Source: Sulfitobacter sp. (lineage in GTDB: Bacteria; Pseudomonadota; Alphaproteobacteria; Rhodobacterales; Rhodobacteraceae). From it: 64,000 nt of DNA. The position numbers and the translations under genes are program-made. Positions 2,251 through 21,099 of the stretch are shown here, piece by piece. The stretch spans positions 1-64,000 of the forward strand of contig JAFMGZ010000013.1 in assembly GCA_017854855.1 (NCBI GenBank), in the 5' to 3' direction. Under the pieces are notes generated by a model. It was not told the origin of the DNA, made no database searches, and was given only the letters and a program-made list of their open reading frames with translations. The first letter of the stretch is position 1. Each line of letters starts with the position of its first letter.

Positions 2251-2703
2251 ATGACAAAACTGAATATCAATGGAACCGAAATGGACGTCGAGGCAGACGG
2301 CAGCATGCCGCTGCTCTGGGCCGTGCGTGATATCGCAGGCATGACGGGCACAAAATACGGCTGCGGCGTCGGCCTGTGTGGTGCCTGCACAGTCCATATT
2401 GATGGCGTCGCCCAGCGGTCCTGCCAGATAACCGTTGATGAGGTCGTTGGCAAAGCTGTGACCACTATTGAAGGTTTGGACGCGAACGGCGAACACCGGG
2501 TCCAACAAGCATGGCGCGAATTGAACGTCCCGCAATGTGGGTTCTGCCAATCTGGGCAAATCATGCAGGCAGCATCGCTGTTGGCTGAAAACCCCAAGCC
2601 CACGGATGGCGAAATTCTTGAGGCTATGGAAGGCAACGTTTGTCGCTGTGGATGTTATCAACGTATCGTCGCCGCCGTTCGGCTGGCCAGCACGGGAGCA
2701 TAA
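2251..2703 (+). CDS. iorA: (2Fe-2S) subunit of a molybdenum hydroxylase, isoquinoline 1-oxidoreductase alpha type
   Basis: This is the small electron-transfer subunit of a xanthine-oxidase-family enzyme; it passes electrons from the molybdenum centre of the partner subunit to an acceptor. Both cluster motifs are intact in its 150 residues. A plant-ferredoxin-like N-terminal cluster uses C38, C43, C46 and C58. An alpha-helical C-terminal cluster uses C96, C99, C131 and C133 in the CGFCQSGQ and CRCG motifs. The start at 2251 follows gggaggga; a longer upstream frame lacks family similarity. The stop is 3 bp before the large subunit, so the two are co-translated. As in other IorAB-type enzymes there is no separate FAD subunit. 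The true substrate is unknown. Confidence 0.9.
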   Translation: MTKLNINGTEMDVEADGSMPLLWAVRDIAGMTGTKYGCGVGLCGACTVHIDGVAQRSCQITVDEVVGKAVTTIEGLDANGEHRVQQAWRELNVPQCGFCQSGQIMQAASLLAENPKPTDGEILEAMEGNVCRCGCYQRIVAAVRLASTGA

Positions 2704-2706
2704 GAC

Positions 2707-5067: not shown

Positions 5068-5182
5068 AGGATGCGGTTGTCAATGCCGACATCCGTTGAC
5101 TTCAACTCCGGTTTTTTTCTCCCACTTGGGTTCCGATTTCTCAACGCATTTGTGCCGCCTTTCATCCGAAGGCCTATGTGTT

Positions 5183-5590
5183 GAGCCCAAGTTCGCATCC
5201 CATTCAGACCCGTCGAGCCAATGGACCGCTGCGCGCAAAGGCCCAGCGTTGTTTGCCTATTCAACCAATTTTCTGATCGACACCGATCACAATGTCATCG
5301 TCGACGTTGAGGGAACCAGATCCATCCGCCAGGCCGAAGTCGGATCGGTGCGCACCATGTTGGACAGGATCAAGAATCGGCATAACTTCGACCCTGAACA
5401 GCTCATTGCAGACAGCGCTTATCGATCAGGGCCGATGCTTGGGTGGCTCGTTGATCGCAAAATCAATCCCCACATTCCCGTGCTGGATAAAGCCGGTCGC
5501 ACCGACGGCACTTGGTCTCGCACCGACTTTGAATGGGACGCCGCGAACGACCAATACATCTGTCCTGAAGGCGAAGGTACCTCAAAAGGG
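5183..5590 (+). pseudogene. Truncated IS1182-family DDE transposase
   Basis: The translated frame matches the central-to-C-terminal part of IS1182-family transposases. Recognisable pieces are the WTAARKG..FAYSTNFLID segment, the VEGTRSIRQAEVGSVRTMLD stretch, the ADSAYRSGPMLGWLVD block and the SRTDFEWD..DQYICPEGE segment that precedes the family's conserved C-terminus. The N-terminal half is missing and the frame ends within a few codons of the CPEGE motif, where the IS110/IS1111-type element begins. It was therefore already a fragment, or was cut by that insertion. It cannot encode an active transposase. Confidence 0.75.
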
Positions 5591-5604
5591 CTTTGTTGAT
5601 GGCG

Positions 5605-5615: not shown

Positions 5616-5680
5616 ACCTACCGGCATCGTAGTGTGCCATTGTGATGTTTCAGAAAGCATCACTCAAAGGGAGAGCATCC

Positions 5681-6706
5681 ATGTCAGAAGTTAGCATAAT
5701 CGGCATAGACCTTGCAAAGCGCGTGTTTCAACGTCACGGGGCTTGCGCAAACGGAGCTGTTATTTTTCGCAAGAAACTGACGCGTGTTCAGCTTCTTGCA
5801 TTTATGAGCGAACAGCCCAAATGCACTGTTGCGATGGAGGCCTGTGCTACAGCTCATTGCTGGGGCCGCGAGATCGAGAAGCTTGGGCACACGGTGCAAC
5901 TGATTGCGCCAAATTATGTGAAGCCGTTTGTAAAACGACAAAAGAATGATGTTGCCGACGCTGAAGCCATCGTTGAGGCGGCCTCGCGGCCAACAATGCG
6001 GTTTGTTGCGTTGAAGTCCGAGGCCCAGCAGGCGCGTGCTATGTTGTTTAGGACACGACAGATGTTCATCGGTCAGCGCACTCAGACGAGCAACGCACTG
6101 CGTGGCCATCTTGCCGAGCACGGCATCGTTGCGCCAAAGGGAGCCATTCACGTCAAATGCTTGGCCGACGCAGTTGCGGATGAGACCGTGGGCTTGCCCG
6201 AAGAAGTCCGAGAACTCGCCCAAGTGTATCTCGCCCAGATCGAAGGTCTCAATGTTCAGATTACGACGCTGGATCAAAAGATGAAGGGGGCTGCTAAAGA
6301 AGCTGAAGCGGCACGGCGGGCCCAGACCATGCCGGGTGTGGGGCCAATTACAGCATTGGCAATTGAGACCTTCGCGCCTGATCTGAACTGCTTTCGCCGA
6401 GGTCGGGATTTTGCGGCATGGCTGGGCTTGGTCCCCAAGCAGAACTCGACAGGCGGCAAACCTCGCCTTGGTAAGACCTCGAAGATGGGCCAACGCGACA
6501 TTCGCCGGTTGCTGATCTCTGGTGCAATGGCTGTTCTTCAAGCTGTTGAGCGATTTGGAACGCCGCATAACACTTGGCTGATAGCCATGCTGGAACGCAA
6601 ACCACGTATGCTTGTTGCCGTGGCACTGGCGAATAAGATGGCCCGCGGTCTGTGGGCCATGGTGACGAAGCAAGTGGACTACCGAACCCCGGCAACGATG
6701 GCATAA
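5681..6706 (+). CDS. IS110-family DEDD transposase
   Basis: This 341-residue protein has the RuvC-like DEDD domain at its N-terminus: D10 in GIDLAK, E53 in AMEAC, and D90/D93 in KNDVADAEAI. The C-terminal transposase_20 region carries PGVGPITA near residue 228 and the RRLLISGA motif with the presumed catalytic serine. IS110 enzymes move a circular intermediate without terminal DDE-type cutting and are guided by a bridge or seeker RNA made from the element's non-coding end. The start at 5681 follows gggagagc; an upstream in-frame ATG at 5642 would add 13 residues outside the family pattern. All catalytic residues are present, so the gene may be active. Confidence 0.92.
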   Translation: MSEVSIIGIDLAKRVFQRHGACANGAVIFRKKLTRVQLLAFMSEQPKCTVAMEACATAHCWGREIEKLGHTVQLIAPNYVKPFVKRQKNDVADAEAIVEAASRPTMRFVALKSEAQQARAMLFRTRQMFIGQRTQTSNALRGHLAEHGIVAPKGAIHVKCLADAVADETVGLPEEVRELAQVYLAQIEGLNVQITTLDQKMKGAAKEAEAARRAQTMPGVGPITALAIETFAPDLNCFRRGRDFAAWLGLVPKQNSTGGKPRLGKTSKMGQRDIRRLLISGAMAVLQAVERFGTPHNTWLIAMLERKPRMLVAVALANKMARGLWAMVTKQVDYRTPATMA

Positions 6707-7640: not shown

Positions 7641-9269
7641 ATGTCTATGGCGTGGTTTGTCACGATCGTATTGCTGGTTATTGCGGCCATACTCATAATT
7701 CTCTTTTTGAGCCGGTATTACCGCAAGGCAACGCGCGAAATCAGCGTGGTCCGCACCGGGCAAGGTGGCCAGAAAGTTGTGCTGGATGGAGGCTGTCTTG
7801 CCCTGCCCTTCCTGCACAAGGTCGCGGAAGTGAACATGCGCACCTCTAAACTTGATATTGAACGCACGGGCCCGAAATCAATTATCACAAAAGACCGTCT
7901 GCGGGTTGATGTGGCTGCTGAATTCTATGTGCGCGTTCAAGCTAACATTGAGGGTGTGGCCACCGCGGCACAGGCGCTCGCGGGTAAATCCTTTCGCGCG
8001 GTGGATTTAGAAGAAATCCTCGAAGGTAAGCTTGTCGACGCGATGCTTTCGGTCGCGGCGCGCTATACCATGGACGAATTGCAGGACAATCGCGCGGCCT
8101 ATGCCAAGGAAGTGAGCGATATGTTGGGCGATAACCTTGCCCAAAACGGTCTGATGCTGGAATCTATGTCGCTGACGCGGATCGACCAGACCCCGTTTCA
8201 CGCACTGGACGAAAACAACGCCTTTAACGCCTTGGGCATGCGGCGCTTGGCCGAAATCATCGCTGTGAACAAAAAAGAACGGGCTGTGATTGAGGCCGAC
8301 GCCGATGTATCCGTGCGTCAAAGCCAGCTGGATGCGACAAAACGCAAACTGACGATCTCCCGCGAAGAAGAAGAAGCGATGATCACCCAGCAGCGGGAGA
8401 TTGAGATTGCACGTTCCCGCTCTGCTGCGGAAACGGCAGAGGAACAGTCGGTCTCAGAGAAGCGCCGCGAGGCTGCACGCATTGAGCGCGAGCGCGAAGT
8501 GCGCTCGTCAGAGATTGCGCGTGATACTGAATTGCGCCGGCAAACGCTTGAGTCGGAATTGAACTCAGCCCTCAAGAAATCCGAGAACACCGTCACGATG
8601 GCACAAAAACGTGGTGAAGAAGCCAAGGCCGAAGCCGAAGCCATTGCCGCAAAGGGCAATGAGGCCGAAGCCGAAGAGCGCGTGCGTACCATCCGCGAAA
8701 CTGCGGCTGCCGAACGCGACAAGGCCCTCGCTCTGATCCGTGCCGCTGAGCAGGCAGAGGTGGACGACACCCGCGTGAAATCCGAAGCGGATACAATTAC
8801 CTCTATGGCTGAGGCGCATGCGAAGGCCATGATCGACGGTGCCAATGCAGACCGCGACCGCTTACTGTCAGAGGCAAAAGGCCGTGCGGCCATCATCACC
8901 GCCGAAAATACACAGAGCCCCGAGCTGATCGCGATGAAGCTTGATGAGCAACGCATGCGCACCTTGCCGCAGCTGGTTGAGAAGATGATGAAACCCACCG
9001 AAAAGATCGAAAGCATTCGCATCAACCAGATGAACGGCTTCAACGGTGCCAGCGGCGGTGAAGGCGGCGACAAGTCTACCATCAATCAGGTGGTTGATTC
9101 CGTGCTCAACATGGCGCTGCAACTCCCTGCTGTTCAAAAGCTGGGCGAGGAGGTCGGCATGAATATCGGCGACGGCGTGCGCGGGCTTTCAAACTCACTC
9201 AATGGCAAAACCGCCGGGGACGCCCCGGAAATAACGTCGGATGACGTTTCATCCGACAAAAAAGACTGA
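7641..9269 (+). CDS. Flotillin/YqiK-family SPFH membrane scaffold protein
   Basis: This 542-residue protein has one N-terminal transmembrane helix (about 4-24), an SPFH/band-7 domain (about 40-200) and a very long Glu/Ala/Arg-rich coiled coil (about 200-430), followed by a short flexible tail. This is the architecture of bacterial flotillins such as YqiK and FloT, which oligomerise in the inner membrane and organise microdomains. The charged repeats (REEEEAMITQQREIEIARS, EAKAEAEAIAAKGNEAEAEE) are diagnostic. The start at 7641 follows gagaagaggc. Its usual partner, an NfeD/YqiJ-like protein, is not adjacent. The gene lies 42 bp upstream of an ABC importer in the same direction, so the two may share a transcript. 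Confidence 0.88.
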   Translation: MSMAWFVTIVLLVIAAILIILFLSRYYRKATREISVVRTGQGGQKVVLDGGCLALPFLHKVAEVNMRTSKLDIERTGPKSIITKDRLRVDVAAEFYVRVQANIEGVATAAQALAGKSFRAVDLEEILEGKLVDAMLSVAARYTMDELQDNRAAYAKEVSDMLGDNLAQNGLMLESMSLTRIDQTPFHALDENNAFNALGMRRLAEIIAVNKKERAVIEADADVSVRQSQLDATKRKLTISREEEEAMITQQREIEIARSRSAAETAEEQSVSEKRREAARIEREREVRSSEIARDTELRRQTLESELNSALKKSENTVTMAQKRGEEAKAEAEAIAAKGNEAEAEERVRTIRETAAAERDKALALIRAAEQAEVDDTRVKSEADTITSMAEAHAKAMIDGANADRDRLLSEAKGRAAIITAENTQSPELIAMKLDEQRMRTLPQLVEKMMKPTEKIESIRINQMNGFNGASGGEGGDKSTINQVVDSVLNMALQLPAVQKLGEEVGMNIGDGVRGLSNSLNGKTAGDAPEITSDDVSSDKKD

Positions 9270-9311: not shown

Positions 9312-10556
9312 ATGAAACTTTCCCGCAGACATTTTGTGATGGGCACTTCCGCTCTGGCCCTCGCCGCTCCGGCTACCATTGCCCGGGCACAATCGGATAA
9401 CATCAAGTTCGCTTCAATCCTCGACCTTTCAGGCGGCCTCGATATCTATGGCGCGCCCATGGCCGAGACCACTAAGCTGGCGATCGAGGACATCAACGCG
9501 GCCGGTGGCCTGCTGGGCCGCGAGGTCGAGCTGAAGATGTATGATGCGCAGTCCACGATCCAATTCTACACCCAATTTGCAACACAGGCCGCCGCCGGTG
9601 ACAAGGCCGCGACGGTCCACGCTGGCATCACCTCCGCCTCGCGCGAGGCCATCCGGCCCACGCTGGCGCGGTTCAAGACACTCTACTTCTACAACACTCA
9701 GTACGAAGGTGGGGTTTGCGACTACAACAACTTCTGCACCGGCTCCACGCCAGCGCAGACGGTTGCCAAGGTTGTGCCTTACGCCATGAACAAATGGGGC
9801 AAGAAGGTTTATATCGTTGCGGCTGACTACAACTACGGTCAGATCACCGCACAGTGGATGCAGAAGTTCGTAGCAGAAAACGGCGGCGAAACGCTGGATG
9901 TTGAATTCTTCCCGTTGGACGTCACCAACTTTGGTCCTACCATCAACAAAATCCAGACAGCCAAGCCTGATATGGTGATCTCTGCCCTTGTGGGCGGCGC
10001 GCATGTGTCGTTCTACCGCCAATATGCGGCGGCGGGAATGCTCAAAGAAATCCCCATCGCGTCTACTACTTTCGGTGTAGGCAACGAGCAAAAGCTGATC
10101 TCGGCCGAAGAAGGCAATGGCATCATAGCCTCTTACGGCTACTTCGAAGGCATCGATAGCGGGGCGAACAAAGACTTCCTCACGCGGTTGGAGGCCAAGC
10201 TAGGCGCAGGCCGTCCGGTGATGAACGAGCTGGCGATCCGGTCTTACGAGGGTGCGATGCTTTGGGCTGAGGCGGTTAAGGCTGCAGGCACCATCGACCG
10301 CGAGCCGGTGATCGAGGCGCTGCGTTCTGGCCTCAGCTATGACGGGCCGTCGGGCAAGGTGACCATTGATTCTCAGACCAACCACTGTTCCATGAACGTC
10401 TATATCGGCGAATTGGCCAATCAGGAATGGAACATTGTGGAATCCTTCGAAAACCAACCCCCTGCGGACACCCAGCTGGTCTGTGATCTGAACGAGAACC
10501 CCAACCAGTCCACCTTCTTGTTTGAGAACGGTCTGGAAGCGGCCGGTATCAAGTAA
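9312..10556 (+). CDS. Urea/amide-type ABC transporter substrate-binding protein
   Basis: This 414-residue periplasmic protein starts with a twin-arginine-like signal (SRRHFVMG, then an Ala-rich segment ending near ARAQ). It continues as a class I periplasmic binding protein of the UrtA/AmiC/FmdD group, recognised by ASILDLSGGLDIYGAPMAE, TSASREAIRPTLAR and AADYNYGQITAQW. These proteins bind urea, short amides or branched-chain amino acids. Because the downstream genes encode a UrtBCDE-like importer and three amide hydrolases, an amide or urea-like ligand is the likeliest substrate. The ribosome binding site is caggagac. A strong hairpin follows the stop, as is common where the binding protein must outnumber the membrane parts. 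Confidence 0.87.
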   Translation: MKLSRRHFVMGTSALALAAPATIARAQSDNIKFASILDLSGGLDIYGAPMAETTKLAIEDINAAGGLLGREVELKMYDAQSTIQFYTQFATQAAAGDKAATVHAGITSASREAIRPTLARFKTLYFYNTQYEGGVCDYNNFCTGSTPAQTVAKVVPYAMNKWGKKVYIVAADYNYGQITAQWMQKFVAENGGETLDVEFFPLDVTNFGPTINKIQTAKPDMVISALVGGAHVSFYRQYAAAGMLKEIPIASTTFGVGNEQKLISAEEGNGIIASYGYFEGIDSGANKDFLTRLEAKLGAGRPVMNELAIRSYEGAMLWAEAVKAAGTIDREPVIEALRSGLSYDGPSGKVTIDSQTNHCSMNVYIGELANQEWNIVESFENQPPADTQLVCDLNENPNQSTFLFENGLEAAGIK

Positions 10557-10562
10557 ACTCCT

Positions 10563-10586
10563 TTGGCCCGGCACACGCCGGGCCAA
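10563..10586 (+). terminator. Intercistronic hairpin after the binding-protein gene
   Basis: A perfect 10-bp stem, TTGGCCCGGC / GCCGGGCCAA, closes an ACAC loop 7 bp after the stop codon. There is no immediate T-run, so it is better seen as an mRNA-stabilising or attenuating hairpin within the operon than as a complete terminator. The permease gene starts 34 bp later. Confidence 0.7.
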
Positions 10587-10620
10587 CCCTCCTATTCTTT
10601 TCCCCCCGCAGGAGATCGCC

Positions 10621-11490
10621 TTGGATCTGGTCGTCGCAGTTCTTTTTCAGCTTGTTTACGGCATCGCAAACCTTGCGCTGATCAGCCTCGGGCTGGCGAT
10701 TATCTTTGGCATGATGCGGGTGATCAATCTGGCGCATGGCGAGTTTCTCATGCTGGGAGGCTATACTGTTGTGGTGGCCACCAACGCCGGCGTGAACATC
10801 TGGATCGCGATGCTGATCCTTGCGCCGCTGGTGGTCGGCCTGATCGGGGTGATTGTGGAACGTCTGCTGATAAGATGGCTTTACGGGCGTATGGTGGATA
10901 CGTTGCTGGCCACATGGGGGCTGTCGCTGTTGTTGATCGGGCTGGTCACGTCGATCTTTGGGGCCTCTACTGGTACGACGATTTCGCCACCGCTCGGGAT
11001 CATCCGCATCGGCGATTATTCCGCCTCGGGCTACGAGCTGTTCTTGATCGGTGTGACAGTCGTGCTCTTTATTGCGGTCTGGGCCACGCTAAAGCTGACC
11101 AAGTTGGGGCTGGTCGCACGTGGCACCATGCAGAACCCCGAAATGTCTGCCGCTTTGGGCGTGTCTAATACGCGCATCTACATGATTACTTTCGGCTTGG
11201 GTGCCGCTGTCACCGGTCTGGCCGGAGGGCTGCTGGCACCGGTAACAGGCGTGCTGCCGACCATCGGAGCTACCTATATTGCCAAGGCGTTCATTACTGT
11301 CATCTCGGGTGGTGCCTCGATCCTTGCAGGCACAGCGGCAGGCTCGATCCTGCTGGGCGGGGTCAACGGGATCTTTGCCTTTATCACAGGCCCGACCATT
11401 GGTGAGGTCGCCCTGCTTGTCTCAGCCATCATTCTGCTGCGGCTTTTGCCACGCGGGATCACTGGGCGGTTCTTCCGCAAATCCCTATGA
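10621..11490 (+). CDS. Urea/amide-type ABC transporter permease (UrtB/LivH-like)
   Basis: This 289-residue integral membrane protein has about eight hydrophobic helices and the family motif RVINLAHGEFLMLGGY near residue 35. It forms half of the inner-membrane channel, paired with the next gene. I place the start at the TTG at 10621 because it follows caggagatc at the right distance and begins exactly at the conserved N-terminal helix; the longer frame from 10522 would run through the intercistronic hairpin. The stop overlaps the next start as ATGA, which indicates coupled translation. Confidence 0.87.
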   Translation: MDLVVAVLFQLVYGIANLALISLGLAIIFGMMRVINLAHGEFLMLGGYTVVVATNAGVNIWIAMLILAPLVVGLIGVIVERLLIRWLYGRMVDTLLATWGLSLLLIGLVTSIFGASTGTTISPPLGIIRIGDYSASGYELFLIGVTVVLFIAVWATLKLTKLGLVARGTMQNPEMSAALGVSNTRIYMITFGLGAAVTGLAGGLLAPVTGVLPTIGATYIAKAFITVISGGASILAGTAAGSILLGGVNGIFAFITGPTIGEVALLVSAIILLRLLPRGITGRFFRKSL

Positions 11491-12524
11491 ACGGTAACGA
11501 TACATTGCGCGCAATGAAGCCTGTGTTCGTCTTTGCGCTGATCGGGGTCGTGTTCATGTTTGCGGCCCCCTACGTGCTGCAGCTGTTCACTATCATCAAC
11601 CTGACCACAGCAATTGCGCTGGCGGTCCTCGCGCTCAGCCTTGCACTGGTGTGGGGTTATGGCGGCATCTTGTGTTTCGGGCAGGTCGCGTTTTTTGGTC
11701 TTGGGGCTTACGCCTATACCATTGCCGCAATTAACTTTGGCGGATCGACCTGGGCCATTCTGGTGGCGGTCATGGTCGCCTCTGCCTTCGCGGCCATACT
11801 GGGGTATTTTGTCTTCTTTGGACGAGTCTCGGATGTATATCTGGGTGTCATCACCTTGACGGTCACACTGATCTTCTTTTCGCTGATCCGCCGCACCTCT
11901 GGGCCTGATTACAAGATCGGCAATGCGCTGATTGGCGGCTTTAACGGGGTCACATCACCGCCGCTGAACCTGCCTTGGGATACCTCGTCCTTCCTGTTCC
12001 CGGAACATGTGTTCTATGTCGCCATGGCAGCTCTCATTCTTTGCTATGTCTTTTGCGGCTGGCTGGTGAACACACGCTTTGGCCGGGTCTGCGCGGGCAT
12101 CCGCGAGAACGAGCTGCGCAGTGAATTGCTGGGATACGACTCACGTCTTTACAAGCTTGGTATCTTCACCATCTCAGCCGGAATCGCGGCGATTGGGGGG
12201 GTGTTGTTCTGCAATGGCGTGGGGCGGATCACGCCGGATGTGTTCAACCTCTATAACGCGGCCCTTACGATCATCTGGGTGATCGTCGGCGGGCGCGGCA
12301 CGCTCATTGGGCCTATCGCCGCGACATTTGGGCTGTTCTATCTGACTTCCGCGCTCGGCGGGCAATCAGTACTGAACAACAATCTTGTGCTGGGCGTCAT
12401 CCTGATCTTCTTTGTTCTGCTGGTGCCCAAGGGTGTGGCCCCCACCATCACAGATTGGTTCACCAAACGCCGCAAGCCCGCGCGCAACAGCCGCCGTCGG
12501 CGCAAGCAGGGGCGCAGCACATGA
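11487..12524 (+). CDS. Urea/amide-type ABC transporter permease (UrtC/LivM-like)
   Basis: This 345-residue polytopic membrane protein has the LivM/UrtC pattern: IALAVLALSLALVWGYGGILCFGQVAFFGLGAYAY in the second and third helices and the cytoplasmic FGRVCAGIRENELRSELLGYD loop that contacts the ATPases. It pairs with the preceding permease. The C-terminus ends in an Arg/Lys-rich tail (about residues 325-345) rather than a helix. It overlaps both neighbours by 4 bp (ATGA), placing it firmly in the operon. Confidence 0.88.
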   Translation: MNGNDTLRAMKPVFVFALIGVVFMFAAPYVLQLFTIINLTTAIALAVLALSLALVWGYGGILCFGQVAFFGLGAYAYTIAAINFGGSTWAILVAVMVASAFAAILGYFVFFGRVSDVYLGVITLTVTLIFFSLIRRTSGPDYKIGNALIGGFNGVTSPPLNLPWDTSSFLFPEHVFYVAMAALILCYVFCGWLVNTRFGRVCAGIRENELRSELLGYDSRLYKLGIFTISAGIAAIGGVLFCNGVGRITPDVFNLYNAALTIIWVIVGGRGTLIGPIAATFGLFYLTSALGGQSVLNNNLVLGVILIFFVLLVPKGVAPTITDWFTKRRKPARNSRRRRKQGRST

Positions 12525-13255
12525 GCCGCAAACGCGACAAGCGCGAGGTTATCGTTGAGACCCGCAATCTGGCGATGCATTTCGGCGGCGTGCGCGCCGT
12601 GGATCAGGTGGACTTCACCCTCTACGATAAAGAATTGCGCTGTTTGATCGGTCCCAATGGTGCGGGAAAATCTACGTTTTTCAAGTGTCTCACCGGTCAG
12701 CTTTCCCCAACAGCAGGTGAAGTGATCATCCGCGGGCAGGACACAACCCGTGCAGAAACGCATGAGATTGCCAGCCTTGGCGTTGGCATCAAAACGCAGG
12801 TTCCCAACCTTTTTGACGGGCTGAGCGTTGATGAAAACATCTGGATGTCCGCCCGCCGCTGGCACAACGCCAAGCGCGCCCGCAGCCTGACCTCGGAAAC
12901 GATCGAGCGGATGAACCTTGGCGATATTCGGCGCGAGATCGTGGGCCAGCTTGCCCATGGTCAGCGCCAATGGGTGGAGCTGGGCATGGTTGTTGCAGCT
13001 GAACCGTGGCTCGTTCTGCTAGACGAACCAGCTGCCGGCATGACCCACGAAGAAACCGCGCGCACCGCCGATTTGATCAAAGAGATTAACACGCAGGCCG
13101 CATTGATTGTGGTCGAACATGACATGCAGTTTATCCGCATGATCTCGCAACAAGTCACCGTTTTCCACGAAGGGCAGATATTGATGGAAGACACCATGGA
13201 GGCAATATCTAACGACAAGCGCGCCCGCGAAGTCTATCTGGGGAACCGCGCATGA
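12521..13255 (+). CDS. Urea/amide-type ABC transporter ATP-binding protein (UrtD-like)
   Basis: This 244-residue nucleotide-binding domain has Walker A GPNGAGKST at 44-52, a family-specific signature LAHGQRQWVELGM in place of LSGGQ, Walker B VLLDEP and the H-loop VVEHD. The HGQ.QW..G.. form is what I recall for UrtD urea-transport ATPases and supports urea or amide over amino-acid transport. The ATG at 12521 overlaps the previous stop (ATGA); the longer frame from 12455 would overlap the permease tail. It presumably heterodimerises with the ATPase half of the next product. Confidence 0.88.
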   Translation: MSRKRDKREVIVETRNLAMHFGGVRAVDQVDFTLYDKELRCLIGPNGAGKSTFFKCLTGQLSPTAGEVIIRGQDTTRAETHEIASLGVGIKTQVPNLFDGLSVDENIWMSARRWHNAKRARSLTSETIERMNLGDIRREIVGQLAHGQRQWVELGMVVAAEPWLVLLDEPAAGMTHEETARTADLIKEINTQAALIVVEHDMQFIRMISQQVTVFHEGQILMEDTMEAISNDKRAREVYLGNRA

Positions 13256-15627
13256 GTGCCTTGCTGAAAGTCAAAGGCCTGATGGCAGGCTATGGCAAGG
13301 TGCCGGTCTTACATGGCATCAGCCTGGAGGTCGGCGCGGGTGAAATTCTGGGCGTGTTGGGGCACAACGGCATGGGTAAAACCACGCTGCTGAAAACGCT
13401 GATGGGGATCGTACCCGCGACCGGCGGTCAGGTTGTGTTTGACGGCGAAGACCTAAGCGGGATGAAGTCTTCGGGCCGCGCACGAATGGGATTAGGCTAT
13501 GTCCCGCAAGGGCGCGGCATCTTTCCAAACCTGAGTGTGCAGGACAATCTGCGCATGGGGGTAGCCGCCCATGATATGGACGAAGGGGACGCGATTGAAC
13601 GCGTGCTCGCCGATTTTCCGCGCCTTGAACGGTTGCTGGACCGCGATGGTGGCGCATTATCTGGCGGAGAGCAGCAGCTGTTGGCGCTGGCGCGTTGTCT
13701 GATATCCGAACCAGACCTGATCTTTCTGGATGAACCGACCGAAGGCATTCAGCCCTCCATCATCGATGAGATTATTGAGTTGTTGCAGTCGCTCAACAAG
13801 CGCACCGGCATCGCCATTGTTCTGGTAGAGCAGAGCCTTGATTTTATCACTGCCTTGTCCGAGCGTGTGCTGTTGATCCAGAAAGGCACAATCACCGGTG
13901 AGATATCTGGCTCAGAAGCCTCCGACCCGGCCCTGATTGAAGAGTTTACCGGATTTGGTGCTTCGGGCGGCTTGGCAAAACCTGCGCTCGGCTCTGAGAC
14001 AGGGGCGCTCAACAAAGCTCCCACCTCCCAAATGCGCAGCACTTCGATCCCTTCTCAGACTGCGCCGCCTTCGCCTGCCAATACGCCCTCCCTTATGGAA
14101 AGGATGTCTTACATGACCGTCCAACGCCCCACCCTCTCCCAGATGAAAGACGTGGTCACTGAACTGGGGATGAGCATGTCAGATGCCCGCGTGCAGGAGT
14201 TCCTGGACGTGATGCAAGGCACGCTGGATGCCTATGACATTGTCGACGGGTTGCCCGATTATTTGCCGCCGGTGCTTTATCCGCGCACCTCGGGGTATCG
14301 CCCTACTGCAGAAGAAAACCCGATGAATGCGTGGTATGTTAAGACCGAGATCAAAGGCGCACCACGTGGTCCGCTGCTGGGACGCAGTGTTGCCCTTAAG
14401 GACAATGTTTGCCTTGCCGGTGTGCCAATGATGAACGGTGCCTCGACGCTCAAGGGCTATACGCCTGATCTGGACGCCACCATTGTGACCCGTTTGCTGG
14501 ACGCCGGTGCCACCATCGCGGGCAAAGCCCACTGCGAATATTTCTGCCTGTCGGGCGGCTCGCACACCAATGCAACAGGTCCGGTGCATAATCCGCACAA
14601 GCATGGGTATTCCGCAGGCGGGTCGTCTTCCGGCTCGGGTGCTTTGGTGGGCGGAGGCTTGATCGACATGGCCATCGGTGGCGACCAAGGTGGTTCGATC
14701 CGCATGCCTGCGTCCTTTTGTGGTTGCTACGGGATGAAACCGACCCATGGTCTTGTCCCCTATTCTGGTATCATGCCGATTGAGAACACCATCGACCATA
14801 CCGGCCCAATGACGCAAAACGTCATGGACAATGCGCTGATGCTGGAAGTGATCGCAGGGGCCGACGGCCTTGATCCGCGACAGTATGACGTCAAAACGGA
14901 CCGCTATACTGCTGCCGTTGGGCGTGGTGTTTCTGGCCTGCGCATTGGCGTGATCAAGGAAGGTTACGAGCAGCCCGGGGCAGAGGCAGACGTCAACGAG
15001 AAGGTGCGTGCCGCCGCTGAAACCCTGCGCGGCTTGGGCGCGACCGTGGACGAGATTTCTGTACCTTGGCACCTGAACGGCGTCGCGATCTGGACACCCA
15101 TTGCGCTAGAGGGGTTGACCCAGCAGATGATGCTGGGCAACGGCATGGGCACAGGCTGGGAGGGGCTTTATACGACCTCATTGCTGGAGCATCATTCCAA
15201 CTGGCGCACCCGCGCGGATGAGCTGAGCGATACGCTCAAGATCTCCATGCTGATCGGCCAATATCACCTTAAGCATACGCGCGGACGCTATTACGCCAAA
15301 GCGCAGAACCTGTCGCGGCAGCTGCGCGATGAGTTCAACAAGGTGTTTGCCTCCTACGATCTGCTGCTAACACCAACAACCGCGATGAAAGCCCCGCCTC
15401 TCCCGTCCAGCGACGCCACGCTGGAAGAGTGGTGCCAACGTGCGTTCGAGAATATCACCAACACCGCAACATTCGACGTCACGGGCCATCCGGCAATGTC
15501 GGTGCCTTGCGGCATGTCGGACGGGTTGCCCGTTGGTCTGCAAATCATCGGGCGGCGTTATGATGAAAGCACGATCTACCGCGCCGCCTCGGCCTTTGAA
15601 CAGGCGGGCGACTGGCGCGAGATGTAG
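13252..15627 (+). CDS. UrtE/LivF-like ATPase fused in frame to an amidase-signature hydrolase
   Basis: One 791-residue frame encodes two complete proteins. Residues 1-236 are an ABC ATPase of the UrtE/LivF type: Walker A GHNGMGKTT at 37-45, LSGGE at 136-140, Walker B with D160-E161, and the usual VEQ in place of the H-loop. Residues 237-285 form a Ser/Pro/Thr-rich linker. From about 288 on there is a full amidase-signature enzyme very like Rhodococcus-type enantioselective amidases, with triad K383, S458 (GGSSSGSG) and S482 (GGDQGGSIRMP). The fusion would tether amide hydrolysis to the cytoplasmic face of its own importer. An internal ATG at 14113 (residue 288) is preceded by GGAAAGG, so a free amidase could also be made. 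A sequencing error joining two genes is possible but needs a lost stop. Confidence 0.88.
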   Translation: MSALLKVKGLMAGYGKVPVLHGISLEVGAGEILGVLGHNGMGKTTLLKTLMGIVPATGGQVVFDGEDLSGMKSSGRARMGLGYVPQGRGIFPNLSVQDNLRMGVAAHDMDEGDAIERVLADFPRLERLLDRDGGALSGGEQQLLALARCLISEPDLIFLDEPTEGIQPSIIDEIIELLQSLNKRTGIAIVLVEQSLDFITALSERVLLIQKGTITGEISGSEASDPALIEEFTGFGASGGLAKPALGSETGALNKAPTSQMRSTSIPSQTAPPSPANTPSLMERMSYMTVQRPTLSQMKDVVTELGMSMSDARVQEFLDVMQGTLDAYDIVDGLPDYLPPVLYPRTSGYRPTAEENPMNAWYVKTEIKGAPRGPLLGRSVALKDNVCLAGVPMMNGASTLKGYTPDLDATIVTRLLDAGATIAGKAHCEYFCLSGGSHTNATGPVHNPHKHGYSAGGSSSGSGALVGGGLIDMAIGGDQGGSIRMPASFCGCYGMKPTHGLVPYSGIMPIENTIDHTGPMTQNVMDNALMLEVIAGADGLDPRQYDVKTDRYTAAVGRGVSGLRIGVIKEGYEQPGAEADVNEKVRAAAETLRGLGATVDEISVPWHLNGVAIWTPIALEGLTQQMMLGNGMGTGWEGLYTTSLLEHHSNWRTRADELSDTLKISMLIGQYHLKHTRGRYYAKAQNLSRQLRDEFNKVFASYDLLLTPTTAMKAPPLPSSDATLEEWCQRAFENITNTATFDVTGHPAMSVPCGMSDGLPVGLQIIGRRYDESTIYRAASAFEQAGDWREM
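14097..14115 (+). promoter_or_regulatory. Possible internal translation start for a free amidase
   Basis: GGAAAGG at 14097-14103 lies 9 bp before an in-frame ATG at 14113, exactly where the linker ends and the amidase domain begins. This is good Shine-Dalgarno spacing. It could be a relic of a once separate gene or an active second start. Confidence 0.4.
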
Positions 15628-15639
15628 GCTGGGGCTGTT

Positions 15640-17331
15640 ATGACACGTCCAATCAACGGTCTTTCACATGTCAAAGGCAGCACCACGCGCCCCTTGATCC
15701 ATGCGACGATCCCCAGTTTCATTGCCGAAGTGCGCAAACGCCACGGGCACCGCATGGCTGCCGTTTTCAGCCAGACCGGAGAACGCTGGACCTATGACGA
15801 CCTGATGCGCCGGGCGGACCGGTTGGCGGCGGGGCTGTTGTCGCTCGGAGTCTACAAGGGCGACCGTGTGGGGATCTGGTCCCCCAACAGACCAGAATGG
15901 GTGCTGACGCAATTCGCCACAGCGCGGATCGGCGCGATCTTGGTGAACATCAACCCCGCTTACCAGACGCCCGAGCTGGAATATGCCCTGCGCCATGCCG
16001 GGGTCAGCACGCTAATCACCGCACCACAATTTCGGGAATCGGATTATCTGGGCAAGCTGCGGGATCTTGCGCCCGAACTTGCCACCGCCCGGCCCGGTCA
16101 CCTGCACAGCAAAAAGCTGCCCGACTTGCGCCGTATCGTCCAGCTTGGGCCCAACCCTATGGCGGGTGCGATGTCCTTTGACGAGGTCATGACGCGGGGC
16201 AATGCCGCGCCCAAAGCCCGCCTTGATGGCATCAGCGCGGCACTGAAACCGGGTGACGCGATCAACATCCAGTTCACCTCCGGCACCACAGGCCGCCCCA
16301 AAGGTGCGACCCTGACCCACGAAAGCATCATCAACAACGCCATCTCAACAGCGCGCACCATGCAGCTGACACCGGATGATGCGCTGTGCATTCCGGTGCC
16401 GCTGTATCATTGCTTTGGCATGGTTTTGGGCAATCTTGCGGCGGTGTCTTATGGCGTCAAAATGGTCTTTCCGGGTGAAGGGTTTGACCCACTTGCCACC
16501 TTAAAGGCCGTGGAAGCTGAAGGTTGCACCGCGCTGCACGGCGTGCCCACCATGTTCGCCGCGATGCTGGATCATCCCGAGTTTGCGCGCTTTGATCTGC
16601 GCCGCCTGCGGACTGGGGTGATGGCCGGATCGCTCTGCCCTGCCCCGCTGATGGCCCGCGTGATGAAGGACATGCATTGCAGCGGCATTACCATCGGCTA
16701 TGGCATGACCGAAACCAGCCCGATCTCGTTTCAGTCTGACCCCGACGATCCGCCTGCGCGGCGCGTATCAACTGTGGGCCGTATTCAACCTCATGTGGAA
16801 TGCCGCGTCGTTGATGATGCGGGGCGGACCCTGCCGGTGGGGCAGCAAGGCCAACTGCTGACCCGTGGCTATCTGGTGATGAAGGGCTATTGGAATGATC
16901 CCGGATTTACCGCCGACGCCATCCGTGATGGCTGGATGCATACGGGCGATCTCGCGACCATCGACGCCGATGGCTATTGCCAGATCACCGGACGTGCGGG
17001 CGATATGCTGATCCGGGGCGGCGAAAATGTCTATCCGGCCGAGGTCGAAGAACTGCTGCTGACCCATCCCGATATTGCGCAGGCACAGGTCTTTGGCCTG
17101 CCTGACGCGCGGCTGGGCGAAGAGGTGGCCGCGTGGGTCATCCTGCGCCCCAATGCCGCTCTGACATCACCCGCGCTGCAAGACTGGTGCCGCAAAAAGA
17201 TCGCCCGTTTCAAAGTACCGCGCCACATCAGGTTTGCGGGGGACATGCCGCTGACGGCCACGGGCAAACCGCAGAAGTTCAAGATGCAGGAGGCGATGTG
17301 CGCAGAGCTTGGCATTGCCCTGCCCACCTGA
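15640..17331 (+). CDS. Acyl-CoA synthetase (AMP-dependent, class I adenylate-forming)
   Basis: This 563-residue enzyme activates a carboxylic acid to its CoA thioester through an acyl-adenylate. The P-loop-like motif FTSGTTGRPKGATLTH lies near residue 212, GYGMTETSPIS near 351 and the hinge/A8 region GDLATIDADGY..GRAGDMLIRGGENVYP around 437-467. The C-terminal catalytic lysine region is TATGKPQK. It resembles the fatty-acyl-CoA synthase group, but chain preference cannot be read. It follows the ATPase-amidase gene by 12 bp, so it could activate the acid released by amide hydrolysis. That link is an inference from order. Confidence 0.88.
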   Translation: MTRPINGLSHVKGSTTRPLIHATIPSFIAEVRKRHGHRMAAVFSQTGERWTYDDLMRRADRLAAGLLSLGVYKGDRVGIWSPNRPEWVLTQFATARIGAILVNINPAYQTPELEYALRHAGVSTLITAPQFRESDYLGKLRDLAPELATARPGHLHSKKLPDLRRIVQLGPNPMAGAMSFDEVMTRGNAAPKARLDGISAALKPGDAINIQFTSGTTGRPKGATLTHESIINNAISTARTMQLTPDDALCIPVPLYHCFGMVLGNLAAVSYGVKMVFPGEGFDPLATLKAVEAEGCTALHGVPTMFAAMLDHPEFARFDLRRLRTGVMAGSLCPAPLMARVMKDMHCSGITIGYGMTETSPISFQSDPDDPPARRVSTVGRIQPHVECRVVDDAGRTLPVGQQGQLLTRGYLVMKGYWNDPGFTADAIRDGWMHTGDLATIDADGYCQITGRAGDMLIRGGENVYPAEVEELLLTHPDIAQAQVFGLPDARLGEEVAAWVILRPNAALTSPALQDWCRKKIARFKVPRHIRFAGDMPLTATGKPQKFKMQEAMCAELGIALPT

Positions 17332-17350
17332 TTTTAGGAGGAAACCGCCC

Positions 17351-17644
17351 ATGCATACCCTGACCGCCATCATCCGCGCCCAAAAGGGCCGGGAGGATAT
17401 TGTACGCGCCGAACTGCTGAAGGTTGGCGTCTTTGCCCGCGACAATGAGCCCGACACCATCGGCTTTCATGTCGCGCAAGACCCTGACGATGCCTGCGTT
17501 TTCACAACATACGAGAGGTTCACCGATAAGGCGGCCATGGACCGGCACAACAACGGTGCCGGCTCCCAAGGTTTCTTTGCTGCGGCAGGCGATCTGCTGG
17601 ATGGCGACGTGACCGTGGTGACAGCCGAAGAAATCTGGCCCTAA
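17351..17644 (+). CDS. ABM-superfamily (antibiotic biosynthesis monooxygenase-like) small protein
   Basis: This 97-residue protein fits the dimeric alpha+beta barrel ABM fold: LTAIIRAQKGREDIVRAELLKV at the N-terminus, then GFHVAQDPDDACVFTTYERFTDKAAMDRHNN. Members include YgiN-type quinol monooxygenases and many uncharacterised small enzymes. Its ATG at 17351 follows aggaggaaaccgccc, 19 bp after the CoA ligase, so it closes this operon. Its stop overlaps the stop of the convergent SDR gene by 4 bp. The substrate is unknown. Confidence 0.75.
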   Translation: MHTLTAIIRAQKGREDIVRAELLKVGVFARDNEPDTIGFHVAQDPDDACVFTTYERFTDKAAMDRHNNGAGSQGFFAAAGDLLDGDVTVVTAEEIWP

Positions 17645-18402
17645 AGCTGCACGCCCTTCGTCAGCGCCCCGTCAATCACCAGATTGGTGCCTGTGGTAAA
17701 GCTCGACGCTGGGCTGGCCAGAAACACAACGCCCCGCGCGATCTCTTGCGGGCTGGCCATGCGGCCCATTGGGTTCATCCCCATCGCTTCGTCGAACAGT
17801 GCTTTGTTGTTCTGTTCGATGTTTTGCCAGATCCCGCCTTCGAAATAGGTATTGCCCGGTGACACGGTGTTGGCGCGAATGCCCTTAGGTGCCAGTTTCA
17901 TCGCCTGTCCCTGAGCGTAGTGCACCAAGGCGGCCTTGAAGGCACCGTAAGCCGGGCCGGTAAAGTCAATCTCGCGCCCCGAAACGGAGGAGATCAGCGT
18001 GATCGATGCGGCCTTGGATTTCTCCAGAAACGGCATTGCGGCGTTCACCAGTCGTACCGAGTGCATCATATCAACGCCAAAGCCGGCTTCCCACGCGGCC
18101 TCATCATCCGCCACAGCAAGGGCCGAGACATTGGCCACAACAATGTCGATGCCCCCCAAAGCGGAGGCGGAATCTGTGACCCATGATTTCAGCGCATGTT
18201 TGTCCGCCACATCCACGCCGCGTCCAATGGCGGTGACCCCTTTGGCCTTGAGCGCCTCAATCGTGTCGGTCACCCCTGCACTGTCACGCGCACAGATGGC
18301 GACATTTGCGCCTTCAGCGGCAAAAATCTCAGCGCATTGACGGCCAATCCCCTTGGTGCCGCCGGTTATCAGCACGTTCAGTCCTTTTAGTCCCAGATCC
18401 AT
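17641..18402 (-). CDS. Short-chain dehydrogenase/reductase
   Basis: This 253-residue classical SDR has the cofactor motif TGGTKGIG at the N-terminus, the NVSALAV segment (normally NNAG) at the structural site and the catalytic YGAFK (YxxxK). An Arg/Lys choice after the glycine motif cannot settle NAD versus NADP. The atypical NNAG replacement is notable but tolerated in some SDRs. It is convergent with the importer operon, with stops overlapping by 4 bp, and heads toward the formamidase and amidase genes with which it is probably co-transcribed. The substrate is unknown. Confidence 0.85.
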   Translation of the reverse strand: MDLGLKGLNVLITGGTKGIGRQCAEIFAAEGANVAICARDSAGVTDTIEALKAKGVTAIGRGVDVADKHALKSWVTDSASALGGIDIVVANVSALAVADDEAAWEAGFGVDMMHSVRLVNAAMPFLEKSKAASITLISSVSGREIDFTGPAYGAFKAALVHYAQGQAMKLAPKGIRANTVSPGNTYFEGGIWQNIEQNNKALFDEAMGMNPMGRMASPQEIARGVVFLASPASSFTTGTNLVIDGALTKGVQL

Positions 18403-18413
18403 TTTACGACCCC

Positions 18414-19403
18414 CTATTGTTCAATGTATTCTTTGAGCATGGACGCGCCCAATGTGTATTTCGGATCGACCATATTCCCGACCCGCATTTTCCCCGCCTG
18501 CGTAGCAAGGAAATAGGCCTCTGATTCCTCAAAATCATAGTCCTCTACCAACCAGCGGATCAGATCGCGGTAGGCCATGCGGGCGGCGTCCTCCATCGGG
18601 CGGGCACTGCCGAGCGACATGATGAAATCTTCGGTCTCAATGCGCACACCGGGGATCGACCAGCCTTTGATGAGGTCGATCTGCACCGTCACTGTGGCCG
18701 GAATCTCGACCGCCACACCACACAGTTCACCGTCCCCCTGACGGCCATGACAATCCCCGATAAAGAAATGCGCGCCTGTCCGTTGCACCGGAAAATAGAT
18801 GATCGCGCCGGGCGCCACATCAGGACAATCCATATTCCCGCCCCAATAATCGGGTTGCAGCGAGCTGACCGCTTCAATCTCGGGGCTGACGCCCATGGTG
18901 CCGACAAAAGGTTCATAAGGCAGTGTGACACGGTCTGAGAATTTGACGCCGCCCTCGGGTGTCACTTCCATTTTCTTGACCCGTTCGACGATCGGCGCGT
19001 TCAGCATTTGATTGCCATCCGCCACCAGCGCGCCAAAGCTGGGGATCAGCGCAGTTGTTCCAACGGGCTGTGGCCCCCGCGGCAGAAGCGAGTGGATATG
19101 TACGGCCAGTACATCGCCTTTCTCGGCCCCTTCCACGGCTATGGGCCCGTTTTGCGGATTGACGAAAGGCATGTTCAACACCTGAGACGGCAAATCATCC
19201 TCTGTCTTGATCGCACCGCCGAAAGCGTCGAGCGTTTCAACCTCTACCACATCACCGGGTGCGATGCGCATGACCGGTTCTGCATAGGGACCATAGACAT
19301 AGTGAAACGTGCCTTGGGCCTCTTCGCTCAGGCGGTGTTTGGCACCGGCTTGCCCCTTGGCGACCGCGTTGCGGCCCATGATCGAGCTGTCTGTCCATCC
19401 CAT
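18414..19403 (-). CDS. fmdA: Acetamidase/formamidase family hydrolase
   Basis: This 329-residue protein belongs to the FmdA/AmdA family of zinc-dependent amidases that release ammonia and a short acid from formamide or acetamide. Diagnostic segments are APGDVVEVETLDA, GPIAVEGAEKGDVLAVHI, GAHFFIGDCHGRQGDGELCG and GWSIPGVRIETED. The length is shorter than long FmdA forms (about 400) but matches the AmdA-like subgroup. The start at 19403 follows agggaga. It sits between an SDR and an amidase, all reverse, and faces the urea/amide-type importer operon. A role in using imported amides as nitrogen source is the natural inference. Strict formamide specificity is not shown, so the symbol denotes the family. 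Confidence 0.82.
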   Translation of the reverse strand: MGWTDSSIMGRNAVAKGQAGAKHRLSEEAQGTFHYVYGPYAEPVMRIAPGDVVEVETLDAFGGAIKTEDDLPSQVLNMPFVNPQNGPIAVEGAEKGDVLAVHIHSLLPRGPQPVGTTALIPSFGALVADGNQMLNAPIVERVKKMEVTPEGGVKFSDRVTLPYEPFVGTMGVSPEIEAVSSLQPDYWGGNMDCPDVAPGAIIYFPVQRTGAHFFIGDCHGRQGDGELCGVAVEIPATVTVQIDLIKGWSIPGVRIETEDFIMSLGSARPMEDAARMAYRDLIRWLVEDYDFEESEAYFLATQAGKMRVGNMVDPKYTLGASMLKEYIEQ

Positions 19404-19441: not shown

Positions 19442-20848
19442 CTATGCGCCCATGTTTGGGTGGCGCGCGTGCCAGTCTGTGGCGCTTTGATAGGCATGTG
19501 CGGCGCGTATGATCGCCGCCTCGCCCAGCTTTGGCCCGACGATCTGCATGCTCAACGGCATGCCCGCGCTGTCAAATCCGCTGGGCAACGTCACCGTCGG
19601 GCTGCCACTAAAATCAAAGGGGGCAGTAAACCGCATGATAGCGCCCAGAACATCCGGATCAGCGCCGTAATCCGCCATATCGGCAAGGCTCGGCGTCGGC
19701 GTGGGCATTGTTGGGCAAAGCATGCAATCCATATCGCCGAACATTGTCTCAAAGGCGGCGGAGAATGCAATCCGCAGATGGTGGCCCTCTGCCGCCTGCA
19801 TGCCGGTGGTTGCGCGCCCCTCATCAATCAGCTGTGCAAGGTCACGGCCATAGTCATCAGCGCGTGCAGGATATGTGTCTCTATGCGCAACAGCAGTTTC
19901 AATCGCGCACATCCTGACCCATGCGTTCACAAGGGCATCGTACTCCGGCAGCGTCACCTCAACCACGCGTGCGCCAAGCTTGATGAATACTTCCAAGGCA
20001 CCTTCCAACGCGTCGACCACCTGAGGATCAATGCCATCAAACGCAAAGCTGCGATCAATGCCAATGCGCATATCGCGCACGCTTTTGCCGATCTCTGCCA
20101 TGTAATCTGGCACCGGCACATCTAAAGAGGTTGGATCTTGGGCATCCCATCCGGCAATCACTTGCAGCACCGCCGCACAATCCGCAGCCGACCGCGCCAT
20201 CGGTCCCATGTGATCAAGCGAATCCGCCAGCGCAAAGACGCCATGGCGGCTGACGCGACCCCAAGTTGGCTTGATCCCCGTTAACCCGCATGTGGCACAA
20301 GGATAGCGGATCGATCCCCCCGTATCACTGCCCAATGACGCAAAGCACAAACCGGCTGACGGCGCGACGCCCGAGCCGCTGGACGAGGTGCCGACCCAGT
20401 ACTCCCGGTTCCAAGGATTGACGGGGACAGGAATAGTCGGGTGATGGCCGGTATAGGCACCTTCGGTCATCGAAAGCTTGCCCAGGATCACTGCGCCCGC
20501 GGTTTCGAGCCTATCAACGACTGTCGCATTATAAGTCGGCACGAAATCCTTGTAGATCGTCGTCCCCGCACGGGTCGGCGCATAGGTCGTATAGCACAGG
20601 TCCTTGACGGCAATGGGCACGCCGTGCAGCGGTCCTTTATAGATGCCAGCCGCAATCTCGGCATCTGCCGTTCCCGCCTGCGCCAGCGCGCGATCTGCGC
20701 AAAGATGGATGTAGCTTTTTAGACCCCCATCCATGCCCGCGATCAGGTCCAGCATGACTTGCGTGACGCCAGCGGATGTCGCCTCCCCTTGGCGGATCAT
20801 CTGGCCAACCTCAACAAGGCTTTTGAATTGCAGTGGTTTTGGTGTCAT
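19442..20848 (-). CDS. Amidase-signature family hydrolase
   Basis: This 468-residue serine hydrolase has the Ser-cisSer-Lys triad: K82 (AVKDL), S155 (GTSSSGSG) and S179 (GSDTGGSIRYP). Sequence around the triad is closer to Glu-tRNA amidotransferase-like and general amide hydrolases than to the fused amidase upstream, so the two are not recent duplicates. I start at 20848 (MTPKPLQ) because ggag lies 8 bp upstream; the in-frame ATG five codons earlier has no such site. No gatB or gatC is near, so a free-standing catabolic amidase is more likely than GatA. It is the third amide hydrolase of the locus. Confidence 0.87.
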   Translation of the reverse strand: MTPKPLQFKSLVEVGQMIRQGEATSAGVTQVMLDLIAGMDGGLKSYIHLCADRALAQAGTADAEIAAGIYKGPLHGVPIAVKDLCYTTYAPTRAGTTIYKDFVPTYNATVVDRLETAGAVILGKLSMTEGAYTGHHPTIPVPVNPWNREYWVGTSSSGSGVAPSAGLCFASLGSDTGGSIRYPCATCGLTGIKPTWGRVSRHGVFALADSLDHMGPMARSAADCAAVLQVIAGWDAQDPTSLDVPVPDYMAEIGKSVRDMRIGIDRSFAFDGIDPQVVDALEGALEVFIKLGARVVEVTLPEYDALVNAWVRMCAIETAVAHRDTYPARADDYGRDLAQLIDEGRATTGMQAAEGHHLRIAFSAAFETMFGDMDCMLCPTMPTPTPSLADMADYGADPDVLGAIMRFTAPFDFSGSPTVTLPSGFDSAGMPLSMQIVGPKLGEAAIIRAAHAYQSATDWHARHPNMGA

Positions 20849-21099
20849 GGTGGCACTCCACATCAGTGTGTTCCGTGACCCAAGTGTTGGCGGAAATGGA
20901 CCGCACGACCAGACCTAATCTTCCAAAACCCGCATCTTTTTGACCTCATTGACCCCAAAGGACATCCGTTAGGCGAAATGGCGCTCAGGCTAGAACTTCA
21001 CCAATTCGTCTGTATCGCAGAACTCTTGCCTAGGCGCGATATTGTGCGATTTCGCATTGCACATATCCTGCAGATGAATTGGGGCAATCTAAACTTGAA

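Follow-up and report, generated by a model that had tools for sequence, protein, structure and literature searches.

The window analyzed here is a stretch of 64,000 nucleotides from Sulfitobacter sp. (GenBank assembly GCA_017854855.1, contig JAFMGZ010000013.1, positions 1 to 64,000, forward strand), in which a single uninterrupted frame of 791 codons at 13252-15627 (forward strand) joins an ATPase of the ATP-binding cassette (ABC) transporter type to an amidase. The same fusion is found in many other genomes, of marine and soil bacteria, carries a conserved internal start for the amidase and is regularly accompanied by genes for a flotillin and a coenzyme A (CoA) ligase, an arrangement that we read as a probable cassette for the uptake, hydrolysis and activation of amides. 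The features of the gene are the following:

13252-15627, forward strand: in-frame fusion of a UrtE/LivF-type ATPase with an amidase-signature enzyme, 791 amino acids (aa) (open reading frame, ORF; Pfam; NCBIfam)
13252-13959, forward strand: ATPase part, residues 1-236 (ABC_tran match; in relatives with separate genes the ATPase ends at most three residues past 236, 24/24)
13960-14112, forward strand: Ala/Pro/Ser/Thr-rich linker, residues 237-287, predicted to be disordered
14097-14103, forward strand: internal Shine-Dalgarno (SD)-like site, GGAAAGG (sequence; hybridization energies; AGG codon choice)
14113-14115, forward strand: internal start codon of a predicted unfused amidase of 504 aa (a start codon in 95/95 distinct fused genes)
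14113-15627, forward strand: amidase part, residues 288-791 (PF01425; PRK07235 above cut-off; PDB 3a1k, E 3.2e-142)

Pfam searches assigned residues 20-163 of the fusion to ABC_tran (PF00005, E 1.3e-32) and residues 362-775 to Amidase (PF01425, E 4.5e-100). The NCBIfam amidase model PRK07235 matched residues 288-790 with 803.8 bits (cut-off 545), which places the enzyme within this subfamily, whereas the UrtE model TIGR03410 gave the ATPase part 261.0 bits, under its curated cut-off of 285.8; the score therefore supports an ATPase of UrtE type but not an assignment to UrtE itself. The ATPase motifs are present, with Walker A GHNGMGKTT (37-45), LSGGE (136-140) and Walker B D160-E161, as are the amidase Lys-Ser-Ser residues K383, S458 and S482. 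Among 51 dereplicated fused homologues, residues G37, N39, G40, G42, K43, T45, Q86, LSGGEQ, D160, E161, K383, S458 and S482 were invariant (51/51), and variation was seen at H38 (50), M41 (49), G87 (49) and T44 (T in 28, S in 23). Of solved structures, the amidase 3a1k is closest in sequence to the enzyme half, and the ABC protein 1ji0 to that of the ATPase. The claim of the original prediction that a complete ATPase and a complete amidase share one frame of 791 residues is thus confirmed by the ORF, the Pfam matches and the conserved residues, and the Ser/Pro/Thr-rich linker that it described was also recovered, at about residues 237-287 and rich in Ala as well. AlphaFold2, with an alignment of 48 fused proteins as input, gave every one of residues 234-288 a per-residue confidence (pLDDT) below 50, in contrast to the domains on either side, which were mostly confident, so that the linker is predicted to be disordered. 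Some short stretches of the amidase also fell below 50, the longest being 629-650, and the other four models were poorer (mean pLDDT 64-69, compared with 79.2 for this model, which had a pTM of 0.61).

To count the fusion across genomes, rows spanning both domains without a stop were scored. It was found in 4/60 relatives and in 35/394 genomes of the family, 14/390 of the order, 11/385 of the class and 1/398 of the phylum; these samples overlap, the genome of the window is included in each, and for family, order, class and phylum, scoring was limited to the two best candidates of each genome. When named genomes were scanned with the amidase half, 80 loci were obtained, the best 80 of 181. In total, 188 amidase matches above 350 bits were classified: 111 were fused, 2 were fused and cut at contig ends, 31 were split (an ATPase just upstream, out of frame or separated by a stop), 32 had no ATPase nearby, a weak class because many loci had just 1.5 kb of flank, and 12 were cut by contig ends. 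After removal of genomes fetched twice, the 111 fused places correspond to 95 distinct genes, that of the window included. Going by the titles of the records, their hosts comprise Alphaproteobacteria, Burkholderiales, several gammaproteobacterial groups and SAR324, many of them represented by metagenome-assembled genomes. Two complete Sulfitobacter plasmids carry the fusion annotated as a single 2382-bp coding sequence ("amidase"), both with the gene order divergent MarR regulator, substrate-binding protein, flotillin, importer, fusion and AMP-binding protein. No C-terminal extension was found in five of the best-scoring LivF-type relatives in the same genome (L002 and L004-L007); an open frame of 673 codons on one of them turned out not to be such an extension. 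At two fused loci, L051 and L161, another amidase of that family starts at the stop of the fused one.

To approach the history of the fusion, a quick tree was built from 51 fused and 24 split amidases plus 23 with no ATPase nearby (98 after dereplication), in which 29 of the 95 inner branches remained open. On this tree the fused state requires 4 changes, against a mean of 33.0 after shuffling, and all fused rows fall within one clade of 54 (support of 95 in the approximate likelihood ratio test SH-aLRT) that also holds three odd rows, L109, L125 and L131. Several independent fusions had been considered, as two distant fused groups looked separate, and were judged less likely because the fused amidases group on the tree as what is essentially a single clade; most likely, judging from the sequences, the fusion arose once, inside split relatives. 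When 24 split loci were fetched again with longer flanks (L214-L237), their ATPases ended no more than three residues past the position matching residue 236 in all cases, with a spacer of 4-377 nt before the amidase. Because the split ATPases end there and are followed by such a spacer, the linker is most likely the former intergenic spacer, opened once the stop of the ATPase gene had disappeared. In the split loci L073 and L074 (G105, G505), the alignments of ATPase and amidase share one frame, interrupted by a single TGA, an arrangement that perhaps resembles the state before fusion.

Linkers of the 51 dereplicated proteins range from 31 to 120 aa (median 55) and contain 22% Ala, 16% Pro and 11% Ser. 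Their reading frame is open in 51/51, whereas about 21 would be expected to stay open after shuffling of their bases, and stops occur in the other two frames in 26/51 and 23/51; the excess of open linkers points to selection for reading through. Linker conservation, one of the checks that the original prediction proposed, gave a divided answer: every fused copy has a linker, and its openness and Ala/Pro/Ser-rich composition are kept, while its sequence is not conserved.

The fusion lies within a set of genes that begins upstream with a flotillin and continues downstream with a CoA ligase:

7641-9269, forward strand: SPFH protein of flotillin type, 542 aa, whose gene opens the conserved cassette (PF15975, E 1.2e-32; PF01145, E 1e-18)
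9312-10556, forward strand: periplasmic substrate-binding protein, urea/amide type (Peripla_BP_5, 8.3e-76)
10522-11490, forward strand: permease 1, UrtB/LivH type, listed as an ORF from TTG, the real start probably lying further in (BPD_transp_2, 3.2e-31)
11487-12524, forward strand: permease 2, UrtC/LivM type, overlapping the preceding stop (BPD_transp_2, 1.7e-31)
12455-13255, forward strand: UrtD/LivG-type ATPase encoded on its own, the ORF listed from TTG but probably starting at the ATG at 12521 (ABC_tran, 8.8e-29)
15640-17331, forward strand: acyl-CoA ligase, AMP-binding (PF00501, 3.8e-97; PDB kin 8weu/8wev)
17309-17644, forward strand: accessory ABM-domain protein (PF03992, 1.6e-9)
17641-18402, reverse strand: short-chain dehydrogenase/reductase (SDR), convergent
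18414-19403, reverse strand: acetamidase/formamidase of the FmdA family, convergent
19442-20863, reverse strand: second amidase, convergent

The stop of the UrtD-type ATPase gene overlaps the start of the fusion (ATGA). Counting distinct loci with at least 7.5 kb of upstream sequence, a flotillin gene was present upstream of the importer in 63/64 fused loci and in 0/24 split ones; with at least 3.6 kb of downstream sequence, a CoA ligase followed in 67/71 fused loci and in 2/27 split ones, both of the latter (L109 and L125) being damaged members of the fused clade. These two partners had gone unnoticed in the original prediction, which as a whole is supported in part. The accessory genes are less regular: the ABM-domain gene gave a tblastn match in just 3/67 named loci, and genes of at least 50% identity stood at the same convergent place in 21/67 loci for the SDR, 20/67 for the FmdA-family enzyme and 7/67 for the second amidase, some of the 67 being too short to reach that far.

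The cassette flotillin has both the SPFH/Band_7 and the Flot domains that define the group, and it is the only match to the Flot domain in this genome. On the other hand, no gene for YqiJ, with which flotillins of this kind are usually paired, was found in the window or in any cassette locus, and among the 300 loci matches occurred only at L261-L264, which are other flotillin loci; lacking an adjacent YqiJ, the cassette flotillin does not belong to the type found in NfeD2/YqiJ operons. In a quick tree (32 versus 6 rows), a branch with an SH-aLRT of 100 separates the cassette flotillins from the small number of other flotillins included. That a flotillin might be exclusive to carriers of the fusion was considered and rejected, since Flot matches occur in 9/36 genomes of the genus, four being fusion carriers and five not; among these five, L261, L262 and L263 have YqiJ beside the flotillin, and L259 and L260 have a second importer type, described below.

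It could be argued that the fusion merely couples expression, with ribosomes running on from the ATPase to the amidase, the two parts acting independently and gaining nothing from being joined. The lack of conserved linker sequence would fit such a view, as would the start signal that the amidase retains (see below), by which the free amidase could be the main form. Coupling, though, did not need the fusion, since the split genes already lie next to each other on one strand, and the invariably open linkers and the co-occurrence of the fusion with flotillin and ligase also speak against this explanation, which we consider unlikely.

As the original prediction had stated, an ATG is present at 14113 with GGAAAGG upstream, and all 111 fused places have a start codon where the amidase begins (110 ATG and 1 GTG; 94 and 1 among the 95 distinct genes). 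Pairing energies with the 16S tail were calculated for the 14 bases from -17 to -4 in the 51 dereplicated genes, giving a mean of -5.5 kcal/mol, compared with -3.4 for synonymous shuffles (Wilcoxon; p-value: 3.5e-9) and -2.2 for other in-frame ATGs of the same genes (Wilcoxon; p-value: 5e-10), rows that are not independent of each other. As controls, the starts of split amidases averaged -7.8 (n = 22; L109 and L125 excluded) and the ATPase starts of those fused genes in which start and flank were found averaged -4.0 (n = 34). The peptides encoded just before the internal start vary by lineage (ERMSY, TVTA, VGTN, REAY, IGNA), whereas the DNA keeps a G/A-rich core from about -12 to -6. As for codon choice, Arg at codon -4 is AGG in 19/21 rows, whereas AGG makes up 4.6% of the 2465 Arg codons at other positions of these genes; the Arg rows, many of them related, include members of each main part of the fused clade. 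Of 14 Gly codons at -3, 13 are GGG or GGA (30% elsewhere), and of 10 Val codons there, 9 are GTG (44% elsewhere). No codon bias was detected for Glu at -5 (GAA 8, GAG 7). A conserved start codon and a ribosome-binding site within the frame, the marks of an internal-start gene, are therefore both present. Taken together, there is good evidence at the level of codon choice that the internal start is used; as this signal is apparently under selection, one gene should give two products, the second, unfused product that had been proposed being supported to that extent. The codon choice itself makes for a clean prediction of two proteins from one gene.

Alternatively, the fused protein might be the sole product and the internal start a relic of the separate amidase gene. 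The signal probably does descend from the split state, and its mean energy is weaker than that of split genes (-5.5 versus -7.8). A relic would not be expected to retain AGG at -4 as it does, nor a start codon in 95/95 genes, one of them as GTG, nor similar purine-rich DNA beneath differing peptides, and we hold this explanation to be quite improbable.

These observations are best accommodated, with a probability of about 0.7, by an amide importer with a tethered plus a free amidase, encoded in a flotillin-associated cassette for uptake, hydrolysis and activation. The sequence-level basis of this reading is the fusion, its conservation, its clustering in one clade, the codon choice at the internal start and the regular flotillin and ligase partners; from there we infer the substrate class, the benefit of tethering, the completion of a dimer and the role of the flotillin. 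Importers of the urea/branched-chain-amino-acid class use two different ATPases. The fusion would be the second of them, carrying the amidase on a flexible arm, and there would therefore be one amidase arm per transporter. An organic amide would be captured by the periplasmic binding protein and imported, the tethered amidase would hydrolyze it close to the membrane into ammonia and an acid, which the ligase encoded by the next gene would convert to its CoA ester. From this architecture it would follow, as originally proposed, that the hydrolase is positioned at the inner face and that uptake and hydrolysis are coupled. Amidases of this family work as dimers, and the free amidase made from the same gene may complete a dimer with the tethered subunit or add cytoplasmic capacity. 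The flotillin, encoded by the first gene of the operon, would probably gather or stabilize importer and enzymes in the membrane.

With regard to the cargo, the enzyme family, the nearby FmdA-family gene and second amidase, and the relatives of the binding protein, named urea-binding or AmiC, provide an amide context, and an organic amide is most likely. The PDB relatives of the binding protein are 8tg1, the urea-binding 7s6e and AmiC 1pea, and its score against UrtA (TIGR03407) was 234 bits, under the cut-off of 492.75, so that it is not assigned to UrtA. Urea as cargo was considered and found unsupported, as all importer subunits score under the urea-specific cut-offs. Also in keeping with an amide, a further binding-protein-like gene, with 21-28% identity to the binding protein of the operon, precedes the flotillin in 20/54 named loci with enough upstream sequence; it is annotated beside the MarR gene in both plasmids and appears, from our reading of it, to resemble AmiC. 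As the nearest solved kin of the ligase (8weu/8wev) are named as fatty-acyl-CoA and feruloyl-CoA synthetases, the acid may, at a guess, be medium-chain or aromatic.

Several observations weigh against the amide cassette as proposed. L162 is fused and has neither flotillin nor ligase, and in L110, L145 and L161, also fused, no ligase was detected. Conversely, the split locus L160, the closest to the fused clade, has a ligase of 55% identity about 9 kb upstream on the opposite strand, and no flotillin. Within the fused clade, L109 has unknown bases in its ATPase, L125 a frame shift in its linker, and L131, which is nested in the clade, no ATPase in the 1.1 kb of upstream sequence available. The test of single genes against synonymous shuffles reached p-value< 0.05 in 7/51, a modest number from rows that are not independent. 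Finally, because the fusion arose essentially once and fused loci share ancestry, the association with flotillin and ligase is largely a single evolutionary event seen repeatedly, that is, the shared inheritance of a package across a wide host range and not many independent associations.

The amidase domain could also act mainly as a sensor, its bound substrate or product throttling the ATPase. Regulatory domains of other importer ATPases do throttle them and usually sit at the C-terminus of the ATPase, which is the position of the amidase here. As the catalytic residues K383, S458 and S482 are kept in 51/51, the linker is long and predicted to be disordered, and a CoA ligase usually follows, a sensor in place of a working enzyme strikes us as very improbable. 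An assembly or annotation artefact or a one-off read-through, which the origin of the window in an assembly of 115 contigs might have suggested, is refuted by the same in-frame architecture in 95 distinct genes and by the two complete plasmids, each with one coding sequence across the linker, and relatives do not all have two separate genes (111 fused places against 31 split).

The second importer type allows a broader, more tentative view. In L259 and L260 a LivF-type ATPase has about 143 extra C-terminal residues and is followed by genes for an aldehyde dehydrogenase, an SDR and a flotillin. A search with this tailed ATPase matched 19/198 family genomes at E 1e-80 or better, of which 17 were fetched again with flanks, the remaining two lying at contig ends on the downstream side. 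A flotillin gene was present in 14/14 tailed loci with enough downstream sequence (tails of 132-183 aa) and in 0/2 untailed ones (L299 and L300); L259 and L260, chosen for having a flotillin, were kept outside this count, and one tailed locus that runs to the contig edge was left out. The operon as found in L259, L260 and L284-L298 consists of a tail of 111-183 aa on the ATPase, an aldehyde dehydrogenase, often an SDR, and a flotillin. The tail contains no enzyme, and it has a conserved helix-like stretch, ending in a EVYRAPRVEVYRR-like motif in some loci and a DRL..L.EIE.AAARAR-like stretch in others; from its composition it reads as disordered. In two importer types, then, an extended ATPase accompanies a flotillin. 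Next to the aldehyde dehydrogenase gene, the second arm may dock that enzyme rather than carry it fused. We tentatively suggest, as a possibility that falls short of probable, a class of importers with their own flotillin, in which a long disordered arm on the second ATPase brings in the first catabolic enzyme (fused plus free in the amide type, docked in the second) and the flotillin is the scaffold of an uptake metabolon. If this were true, a bacterial flotillin would gain a clear client and a job.

Among known systems, the closest in gene order are the split urea/amide-type importers of the Aureimonas sp. AU20 and Paracoccus methylovorus plasmids, with a binding protein, two permeases, two ATPases and an amidase of the same family. 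They differ in that ATPase and amidase are two genes, and split loci have no flotillin (24/24) and no CoA ligase on the same strand just downstream (25/27); neither was annotated in the Aureimonas and Paracoccus plasmid stretches. Behind the split importer of the Paracoccus plasmid lie genes for a binding-domain and an ANTAR-domain protein, an arrangement reminiscent of the AmiC/AmiR pair of amide regulation. The amidase of Rhodococcus sp. N-771 (PDB 3a1i and 3a1k) is the closest solved relative of the enzyme half, but it is a free-standing chain without a transporter part. The models of the UrtABCDE urea transporter are the best NCBIfam matches of the cassette importer subunits, yet every subunit falls under the curated cut-off and the enzyme of the cassette is fused. 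A related cluster beside amidase genes was argued to carry an amide and not urea (PMC3098086).

Flotillin/YqiK proteins paired with YqiJ (NfeD2) share the Flot and SPFH domains with the cassette flotillin, whereas the cassette loci have no YqiJ. One study describes NfeD-type operon partners for this flotillin subgroup, and its text has no words beginning with "transporter" or "amid" (PMC2636767); the function of bacterial flotillins is disputed, and both views are mentioned in PMC8656257. SpaO of Salmonella is likewise reported to yield a full-length protein and its C-terminal part from one gene, as is predicted for the cassette gene, but there it forms a secretion scaffold, in contrast to a transporter ATPase and a metabolic enzyme (PMC13059759). 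No paper on an ATPase-amidase fusion or a flotillin-importer cassette was found among the matches listed in the openly licensed full-text literature.

The fusion is a widely kept natural joining of a transporter ATPase to the likely enzyme of its cargo, in which hand-over from importer to enzyme is testable by cutting the linker, and it makes a good natural system for studying how bacteria couple uptake to metabolism. On its own it is a variation on a known importer, and it could prove broader through its link to the flotillin, which is here associated with a single defined transporter operon, so that a client can be named and tested.

Elsewhere in the window, an IS110-family transposase gene lies upstream of the flotillin at 5642-6706 (PF02371, PF01548), and the translation of an ORF at 5096-5599 resembles a further transposase fragment. 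Positions 2005-5010 encode the [2Fe-2S] and molybdopterin-binding subunits of an enzyme of the xanthine dehydrogenase family; Sulfitobacter alexandrii has genes annotated likewise on the downstream side of its cassette. At 43105-44675 (reverse strand) are two LivF/LivG-like ATPase genes adjoining genes of the AMP-binding and beta-lactamase families.

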